Shown here: positions 27,001 through 30,000 of the stretch, in pieces
How positions within the stretch are numbered: the stretch's first letter is position 1
Layout of the letters: each line of letters opens with the position of its first letter
Position numbers and translations under genes: made by a program
The notes under the pieces: model-generated
The model's input: the letters and a program-made list of their open reading frames with translations, nothing else
Told to the model about the DNA's origin: nothing
The model's database searches: none
DNA from: Glandiceps talaboti
Taxonomy: Eukaryota > Hemichordata > Enteropneusta > Spengelidae
Assembly: GCF_964340395.1 (NCBI RefSeq)
Contig: NC_135566.1
Location: 21,373,135-21,437,134 of the forward strand
Length of the DNA: 64,000 nucleotides
Reading direction: 5' to 3'

Positions 27001-30000
27001 CGCGATATGCACTAAATACATCAGCCATATTCACAAAGTGATGCAGGTAGTCATAGCCCGAGACGGCCGTGCTTCAGGCTTTTAGAACTGTGGTCAGAGC
27101 TCCAACAGAACAATACGGTGTTTCCACGATTTCATTGATATAACTAGTTTGTTCTAGTGAAACAAGTCATAAACCTGCCACAGGGAAAACACTACCATGA
27201 TGCTGACAAGTAGTAGACACGCGAACAAATGAAGCACACGCAAACAATTGTGAATCAGGCGTCGCATGTCTTCAGGTGTGAATTAGATATTTTTTTGGTA
27301 TTTCCTATCCTTTAGAAGGAAATTGGACAGACGTGTCCAAGCTTTTTTCACACGTTAAAAGTATGCCAATTGAGCTGAAAACGTCCACAGACCTTTTATG
27401 ACAATGTCAAAAACGGTGTCATGGATTTTTTTTCTCAACTCCTTCTCATCTGTAACCAAAATAATTCAGATACCTTATGTAAATAAATAATGGTCCATTT
27501 GATTGATATTCATAGTAGCTTGACAACCAGACTCGTGACGCAGAAAATGAGGGACGGTTTCTTGGTCAAGTCGGGCTTATTTATTTGTGCAAGTGTCAAA
27601 TCTAGCAGTCAAAACTGTATGAAGTGTGACCGTCACTAATTATTCAAATGTAAAGTGACAATTGTCACCTTTTTTTCCACAATTTTTTTAAATGAATACA
27701 AAGGAGATTCATAGCGATACTACATTCTTTCATTGTAATTTTGGGTGCCCGGTCCTAGGGTAAAGGCAAGAACTGAATAGGTTTTGCTAAACATCCCATG
27801 AATATTATTGAACAATTTACGCAATTAATGCAACCTTCAAATTTAATATAGAAGACACCAAAGTTATAGCTATAGCTACGGGTGGGTTGTTACAAACTGG
27901 CCTTAAATTACACTATCGACACGTTAGCACACATCCTTTTCATTTACACCTGCAGTGTTAGAGAATATTTACTTTTCATTGCATTGTATGACCTATAGCA
28001 GAAGTTATTAAGATAATCGTTAGATTGGTTTGGTAGTTCTCTGTTTGGAGAATGTGGTGGCCCTGAAAAGGGCCGTTTTGTATTTGGTAAGCTGTCTAAT
28101 TAGCTGTTGTACCGACTGAGAAATTCAGTCATATACATTGACAAATCTTGAGCATGTTGCATGTGACCGAGAACATAGCGGACATGCTCACACGCGCTCC
28201 GTAGTGCCAACAACGCATCTTCGGCTTCTTCCTCATCGGTGGCGTTATTCAGCTCGTCAGTATAACGAACCACAGCTTGCATTTGTTCTTCAGCAAGTTC
28301 AGTTACCCAACGGTGGAGTCTTTCCAACTCTTGCAAATGGAGAAGGATTGCTGCATATGCTGAGCTGGCCATCATGTGTACATATGGTACTTGGTGAAAA
28401 CCACGACGTTGAATGATTTGTTCTCAGCCTATGTGATTTATAAATAAATGGTTCATAAATATTCATAAAAGAGTCTCTTGCATATATTATTTAAGTAACA
28501 CCTTCACTAGTGTTATAAGCGTAACAAATACAATAGTTATTACTGTATGGCATCCTACATTGTACCGTATGACGATTAAACTGACGCACGACAAACGTTC
28601 TGGAGGGGAGTCCATGACTTCGTTTTGCGTATTCGTACTGCTAATAAAGTTTCTAAATAAGAAGAGACAATGTCATTTTTCTTGTATAGAAGGAATTGCC
28701 ATTAGAAATGTTGCCAAAATACATCGAGATAGGATGCATGTTGTTCGAAATAACCATATGAATAAATAATCCCCTGGACAAATAACGATGTACAATGAAA
28801 TGAACGGAAAAAACAACCGCTGAAATGCTATGTAAATGTGATTTTATTATTCAATATCACTTATTGTTACAACTACATAGAAACAAACAAAAAATAACAA
28901 AAAAACTACACACACACACACACACACACACACAAAATAAACAATTTGTGAGTGTAAAAAAAAGTTAGTATGTTTGCTTGTTTATTTGTGTGTTTTTTGT
29001 TTGTTTCATTGTAACACGGTTCCTGGCCCTCCTGTTACAATCAACGAAATAAACAAAAAATGACAAATGAACAAGCCAATAAATAAATAAATCATCGCTG
29101 TCATGCTATGGCCGTTAAACTCAACATATAAATTACAGCACATGCAACTGAAATCGATTCAATCGAAACTCCAGTACTGCCGAATATTAACTCGGTTTAT
29201 ATTATTACTTTATTATGTTTGGAAGGGGCTTGTTTCATGTCATGTAGTCGGTATTATTCGTTGATATTTTTTGAGACAGGGTGGGCGGACCGGTCGGTTG
29301 TTCAATTCTGTAAAATGGAATCAGGTGACCAGTTGTACTGAGACTTTCGAGAATGCAACGACTATTATATTAATTATATTCGCATCGACGGAAGCGATAA
29401 CTCATGCTGCCAACGTTATGTTTGCCCATAGACCTGTTCTGTTAGTGGCCGGTCCTAGTACCAGTGAGCCAGTAAGTTACGATAGTGTAGTCGCTCAGGA
29501 CGATAAAATTAGGAAATGATAATAGGTTTCTGACGTGAATACTCAGTAACATCAAATAGATATTTTATCTAGCCAGACAATAAACTTCATTGATTTGAGT
29601 AAGATTGTGTCGAGTCTTGCGACTTTATTCAGGGTATATGCATATGGTTTTCGTTGTACATGAGATGTGGATACGACCAGGGGTAGTAGTACTAGTACTG
29701 CTCAAATTAGGTGATTTCCTCTGCGCGTGTTATCGATTTACTGTGAACGGTCACACCCGATGACAAGATAAGTACATACGTCGGGTCGCTTCCCAGTAAT
29801 CTTTTTTATTTGAGCCTAGTGCCAAACAATTGTTGCAAGAATGTGACGATAAAAAGTACCCGTTAACAGCCAAATATTATTCAAGTCTTGATTTTTGTTT
29901 GATTTATAAGAAAACGAATGTTTAAAAAGCGATACGAACATCCCAAAACCCAAAAAACGGAATGTATTTCTGAATGTAATTAAGTAAAAAATAACTTTGG

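Follow-up and report, generated by a model that had tools for sequence, protein, structure and literature searches.

Genes whose mRNAs end in a histone-type stem-loop are expected to encode histones, and we asked what gene lies at positions 28446-28036 (minus strand) of the window, i.e., the whole 64-kb stretch of DNA analyzed (C19:21373135-21437134; the assembly spans 590 Mb and has 47 contigs), where the signals of a histone gene surround a frame for an acidic, lysine-free protein.

Histone-type architecture of the gene

The TATA box, cap site, intronless frame, stem-loop and U7-type element were all located where a preliminary description of this DNA had placed them (Table 1), and the TATA-to-cap spacing given there as 27 nt was ~28 nt on our reading. 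Transcription would start near 28414, judging from these motifs. The short upstream ORF had gone unmentioned in that description; in the copy of the gene on C16, a 4-nt insertion brings the upstream ATG into frame with the 91-aa frame.

Table 1 Features of the 91-codon gene, its copies and its surroundings (positions without a contig name are those of the window).
Feature	Position	Strand	Remarks
TATA box TATAAAT	28436..28442	-	read from the sequence
Cap-site-like TCATTCA	28410..28416	-	~28 nt after the TATA box; read from the sequence
3-codon upstream ORF	28372..28383	-	overlaps the start codon of the 91-codon frame
91-codon intronless frame	28100..28375	-	acidic, lysine-free; predicted antiparallel two-helix hairpin
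Canonical histone mRNA stem-loop GGCCCTTTTCAGGGCC	28059..28074	-	6-bp stem, 4-nt loop, 25 nt past the stop
U7-type purine-rich target CCAAACAGAGAAC	28036..28048	-	histone register; differs at a single base from the histone consensus CCAAAAAGAGAAC
13.6-kb segment holding the gene	17012..30646	.	duplicated at C16:12162747-12179546, 90-99% identity with gaps
Mariner-type transposase in pieces	24781-27085	+	stop in the first part, apparent introns, common to the C16 copy
97% identical copy	C16:12177031-12177303		frame, stem-loop and U7 target intact
Decayed relative	C17:21645566		
Second decayed relative	C17:21644728-21644898		mutated stem-loop, U7 target intact, ~190 nt of related downstream DNA

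The stem-loop was matched by the Rfam covariance model RF00032 at 28079-28034 on the minus strand (37.1 bits, gathering cut-off 34, E = 3.2e-7), which bears out its first identification from the sequence alone and is the sole gathering-level Rfam match within the whole 64-kb window. As a reference set, we used 60 distinct histone 3' ends from fetched loci, i.e., H4 (n = 21), H2A (n = 14), H2B (n = 14), H3 (n = 8) and H1 (n = 3). The stop-to-stem-loop gap of the window gene, 25 nt as first described, falls within the range of 21-35 nt of these histone ends (n = 60). Around the stem-loop, the window matches the histone consensus at 49 of 52 positions and the C16 copy at 50, with the histones themselves at 32-52 (median 50). 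Its own copies aside, the closest single relative of the window 3' end lies at an H2A gene on C6 (96% over 57 nt). The purine-rich U7-like element likewise stands in the correct histone register, with a C where the histone consensus has an A, and TATA elements were also seen upstream of most of the 18 histone frames examined in the same genome.

With a stem-loop soon after the stop and an intronless frame behind a TATA box, the gene has the layout of the replication-dependent histone-type class, whose members are likewise intronless, with a TATA box, a cap site and a U7-type target in register. It differs from replication-dependent histone genes in lying outside a histone cluster and in its product, which has neither histone similarity nor lysine and is net negative. 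The idea that the stem-loop is a relic of a nearby true histone gene, raised earlier as a possible refutation, is disfavoured because the window has no second gathering-level stem-loop; the frame also has no histone match in Pfam. A frameshifted histone was rejected as well: the antisense resemblance to an H2A tail, noticed by eye, corresponds to nothing in Pfam at E ≤ 1 and to a poor fold.

Coding signature of the 91-codon frame

The frame looks coding from its predicted fold, its C16 copy and the conservation of second codon positions in a C17 relic. When modelled with AlphaFold as a lone sequence, its product reached a pLDDT of 88.6, compared with 41.0 for the antisense frame at this locus (98 residues), which was modelled in the same way. 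Against the C17 relic, which is broken today, 39 codons could be aligned, a stretch that takes in a run of Asp codons, and the differences number 14, 5 and 20 at first, second and third positions, respectively (second against third, Fisher p = 5e-4; pS = 0.55, pN = 0.28). Such a deficit of second-position relative to third-position changes points to past selection on the protein. The C19 and C16 frames are separated by 3 nonsynonymous changes and 1 synonymous change (pN = 0.014, pS = 0.018), and with these four coding differences the pair by itself has little power and shows no constraint.

The count of residues confirmed an acidic product without lysine (0 Lys, 4 Asp and 12 Glu, for the roughly 16 acidic residues among 91 reported at first), with 6 Arg, a pI of 4.7 and a net charge of about -10. 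The absence of lysine is only mildly unusual given the base composition (P ~0.03), and we discarded it as a signature of the protein, since it is weak and the C17 relic contains lysines.

Nature of the predicted protein

The AlphaFold model consists of two helices (residues 3-43 and 48-90), in agreement with the helical structure first predicted. No Pfam family was found above cut-off, a PDB sequence search returned no match (best E = 5.9), and a protein database of 5.8 billion sequences yielded 4 candidates, none at E ≤ 1. For the FKBP6 gene nearby, the same database gave 233 relatives at E ≤ 1e-10, with many animals among the 120 listed. Foldseek matches to the model were generic helical hairpins (best E of 0.2 in PDB and 0.03 in BFVD), and there was no histone among the 50 PDB fold matches listed. 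These results uphold the view that the product is unlike core or linker histones. They lend no support to the chaperone-like or histone-mimic role that had been proposed with it: no known histone chaperone family was matched in Pfam, PDB or the protein database, and the 16 pattern matches seen in viral contigs include no gene for a relative. On that last count, and given the weak fold matches in BFVD, a viral origin of the gene was rejected. The product can be described as a small acidic helical hairpin that is probably protein-binding, which is as far as the modelled structure and the searches reach.

Copies and genomic setting

The protein has three matches in the genome, among them those on C16 and C17. 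Frame, stem-loop and promoter elements are all intact on C19 and C16, and two of the four copies found are decayed. The association of the frame with its 3' end appears to be old, as in one of the C17 relatives the U7 target, a mutated stem-loop and related DNA past it are all still present. Probing the genome with the DNA of the duplicated segment revealed two full copies and a partial one on C15, the rest of the 40 matches scored being copies of one short repeat. The many dispersed copies of a transposon cargo are therefore not seen here (three protein matches, two full segment copies). No terminal repeats were detected at the segment ends or near the 91-aa gene.

The DDE part of the mariner-type transposase (25889-27085) ends ~1 kb from the 91-aa gene on the opposite strand. 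We rejected mariner as its carrier; the two are convergent in the window but tandem on C17, so there is no fixed arrangement. The C16 copy of the segment holds extra DNA in which a mutated stem-loop follows a frame that is HIRAN-like by eye, a label that was dropped because the place is absent from the 33 matches of a HIRAN protein search. An association of the 91-aa gene with mobile DNA is likely. The C17 relatives lie in a 21-kb stretch (C17:21640226-21661566; L034-L036) with several intact or mutated stem-loops, which also carries a mariner-type repeat in three tandem copies of 1.5 kb.

Histone-type stem-loops across the genome

Exact copies of the stem-loop GGCYCTTTTCAGRGCCA number 216 genome-wide, with 100 on the forward and 116 on the reverse strand, against 0 for the reversed control. 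We read 99 of these sites, which were the first by contig order rather than a random draw and all lie on C1-C8; the unread site among the first 100 (C6:24082158) is amid H4 genes. Sites were classified by the presence of a histone signature in the ~600 nt upstream of the stem-loop. A histone frame precedes 51 of the 99, and none was found by signature before the other 48, which contradicts, for this genome, the earlier statement that histone 3' ends are rare outside histone genes.

The 48 non-histone sites, most of them transposon-like in character, included HIRAN frames (n = 11), two P2RX7_C-like families (n = 17 and 2, respectively), DDE_Tnp_4 (n = 3), DDE_1 (n = 1), a MITE (n = 4), a family with the motif 'RPxFVR' (n = 2), a repeat termed D (n = 2) and six others. 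Two of these six (L099 and L100) lie next to H3 genes whose 3' flank they share. They may be decayed H3, which makes 46 of 99 the stricter count; another of the six, L061, fits no named family. L094 and L108 have the 3' flank common to the first P2RX7_C-like family, and L022 aligns with the MITE. The site counts overstate the number of independent cases, because several non-histone stem-loops sit in large recent duplications; two DDE_Tnp_4 copies are 99.9% identical across the whole 6 kb retrieved, and a pair of MITE copies is 99.4% identical across 3 kb. A separate family search gave at least 75 stem-loop candidates, 74 of them above the Rfam cut-off.

Non-histone genes with histone-type ends

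The identities of the HIRAN-domain, DDE_Tnp_4, DDE_1 and DDE_3 frames pass the Pfam cut-offs, and the label P2RX7_C-like refers to Pfam matches of 20.0 and 13 bits, below the cut-off of 23.5. Most intact non-histone frames stop 17-52 nt ahead of the stem-loop. The HIRAN genes lack introns and encode standalone proteins of 129-130 aa (PF08797; bit scores of 45.6 and 32.6 against a cut-off of 24.7), with the stop 38 nt before the stem-loop in L060 and 20 nt before it in L074 and its copies; L066 and L068 are decayed. Of the 33 genome matches to a HIRAN relative, 13 are open over one and the same length and score almost alike. An ENA entry (longest contig 778 nt), possibly a transcript, has a protein identical to that of L074. 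L060 and L074 differ with pS = 0.84 and pN = 0.38 (second against third positions, p = 3e-8). Like the 91-aa gene, the HIRAN genes are small and intronless, with a U7-type target; they differ in having a known DNA-binding domain and many copies, whereas no known domain was recognized in the 91-aa protein, of which two copies are intact.

The DDE_Tnp_4 frame (45.8 bits, cut-off 24.8) stops 21 nt ahead of the stem-loop in L069/L070 and is disturbed in L132, the DDE_1 frame in L071 (59.3 bits, cut-off 22) lies 52 nt from it, and a mariner-type DDE_3 frame on C17 (56.1 bits, cut-off 28.6) lies 109 nt from it. These transposases (L069/L070, L071, L014) thus have the same 3' signals, 21-110 nt after the frame, and are enzymes of known type, in contrast to the 91-aa gene, for which neither terminal repeats nor a transposase function was found. 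In the most abundant P2RX7_C-like family, 208 open codons end 40 nt before the stem-loop of L083, which has no Pfam match.

The MITE is ~930 bp long with inverted ends TACCGGAGTTTTCCGAAAAC, and one copy has a HIRAN remnant ahead of the stem-loop; for a 24-nt piece of the MITE end there are 37 exact matches in the genome, five of them at fetched stem-loop sites. A LINE-borne stem-loop was considered for L019/L020, where a reverse-transcriptase frame lies upstream, and rejected; because this frame continues into a MITE that has inverted ends itself, the stem-loop was assigned to the MITE.

Two further loci, L142 (C4:8567809-8573809) and L143, carry DDE_Tnp_4 with a histone stem-loop and, by eye, THAP-like and YqaJ-like frames nearby; HIRAN fragments at C4:8574931 and C4:8990643 lie just past L142 and L143, respectively. 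Ten near-identical 3-kb stretches (L001 and L004-L011 at C20:3.97-7.45 Mb, L012 on C21; ~98-99.6% identical to L001) have a frame of 116-121 codons and a histone stem-loop, and are spread over 3.5 Mb of one contig.

SLBP and candidate U7 pairing

In the histone pathway, SLBP and U7 bind the transcript, cleavage falls ~5 nt past the stem-loop, and the mRNA has no poly(A) tail. This pathway is established (PMC5636114, PMC6303110). SLBP is encoded on C16 (two pieces above the Pfam cut-off). An Rfam search of the genome for U7 found none above cut-off and six weaker matches, the best-scoring of which is on C1 (28.4 bits); the pairing figures below concern another, on C7 (C7:19263040-19263103; 24.5 bits, cut-off 34), which lies amid histone genes and has an Sm-like site and a strong 3' hairpin.

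The 5' part of the C7 candidate pairs at -13.7 kcal/mol with the histone consensus, -13.7 with the C16 copy and -10.9 with the window target, where one mismatch weakens the pairing and 0 of 200 shuffles pair as well. Eight targets from HIRAN, DDE, MITE, mariner and P2RX7_C-like sites gave -11.6 to -14.2, and in each case no more than 1 of 200 letter shuffles paired as well. The target of the C17 relic gave -8.1 (2 of 200 shuffles), and that of L073 does not pair (-4.1; 116 of 200). This sub-threshold candidate therefore pairs with 12 of the 13 targets tried. Several families diverge from histones right after AAAAAGAG yet pair equally, which hints at a maintained function. For the proposed use of the SLBP/U7 pathway, the histone-type 3' end, the encoded SLBP and a pairing U7 candidate are in favour, and the score of the candidate below the Rfam cut-off is against it.

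Origin of the gene

We consider it probable that the 91-codon locus is a genuine low-copy intronless non-histone gene with a histone-type mRNA, and one of a large class linked to mobile DNA. Transcription would start from the TATA promoter, SLBP would bind the stem-loop and the U7 snRNP would pair with the downstream purine element; cleavage ~5 nt past the stem-loop would leave an mRNA without a poly(A) tail, which may build up during S phase, or in the egg and the early embryo. We propose this route because the established histone pathway works so. The class consists of small genes without introns and of transposase genes, all with a histone-type 3' end, and many of its members lie on DNA that is mobile or duplicated. 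The 91-aa product would most likely be a small helical-hairpin, protein-binding accessory factor with replication-timed production, and it probably belongs to an element that is, or once was, mobile. Counting against this reading are the lack of constraint between C19 and C16, the decay of both C17 relatives, the mismatch in the U7 target of the window, the scores of all U7 matches below the Rfam cut-off, the lack of detected terminal repeats, the mere two full copies of the segment and the convergent orientation of the nearby transposase.

One alternative, close to the idea in the preliminary description, is an ordinary host gene that gained its histone 3' end without a mobile element and whose product serves chromatin or replication, in S phase or as a maternal factor. 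It would account for the low copy number, the lack of detected terminal repeats, the histone-type architecture and the history of selection on the protein. We regard this as unlikely, as the protein has no relative in any database searched, half of the copies found are decayed, the gene sits in a duplicated segment with a transposase frame, and most other identified non-histone stem-loop genes are repetitive. It is rather improbable that a formerly working gene is now a neutral, functionless passenger of the segmental duplication; the similar pN and pS between C19 and C16, the decayed C17 relatives, the weakened U7 target of the window copy and the missing database relatives would fit such decay, but frame, stem-loop and promoter elements are intact in both copies, the single sequence folds strongly, and four coding differences carry little power. 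That an open frame happens to precede a stray or captured stem-loop by chance is very improbable and was already disfavoured. In its favour, 58 of 20,000 simulated sequences produced an ATG frame of at least 91 codons whose end lay at most 60 nt before a fixed point, and stem-loops are scattered genome-wide, some within a MITE; the histone-like gap, the TATA box and cap site, the pattern of conservation by codon position relative to the C17 relic and the difference in fold between the frame and its antisense counterpart all argue against it.

Possible use of histone-type ends by mobile DNA

According to a published abstract, core histone mRNA is the only known metazoan coding mRNA of the stem-loop kind. 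In the literature covered, judged by titles and the openings of abstracts and mostly without subscription journals, we found no precedent for transposon or other non-histone genes with histone stem-loops, and passages of PMC1924863 and PMC9756948 do not bear on such genes. The signals and the gene types are known, and their combination is without precedent in that literature.

The case that unrelated families (DDE transposases, HIRAN, P2RX7_C-like and the 91-aa gene) have adopted histone 3' ends on a genomic scale seems to us evenly balanced; their mRNAs would be made by SLBP and U7 and therefore be available during DNA replication. The arrangement suggests that mobile DNA has taken over the regulation by which histone synthesis is coupled to DNA replication. 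If non-histone genes are processed in this way, the histone-only rule for stem-loop coding mRNA fails on a genomic scale, mobile DNA gains a simple means of timing its proteins to S phase, eggs or early embryos, and such mRNAs would escape poly(A)-based transcriptomes and annotations. A coupling of transposition to replication through the choice of mRNA 3' end becomes directly testable.

Other features of the window

FKBP6-type exons (FKBP_C and TPR pieces) lie at 37911-44658 on the plus strand, and this gene identifies the DNA as that of an animal. The best relatives of the exons are ~50% identical, so that the protein database, as far as it was searched, contains no close relative of this animal. 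Within the duplicated segment are two long frames on the minus strand (18991-19671 and 21608-21850), which may belong to a BEN-domain protein and for which Pfam gave no match above cut-off. Long minisatellite arrays with units of ~31-57 nt occupy 6844-8128, 12910-15970, 44608-48034, 50243-53433 and 59211-61846.
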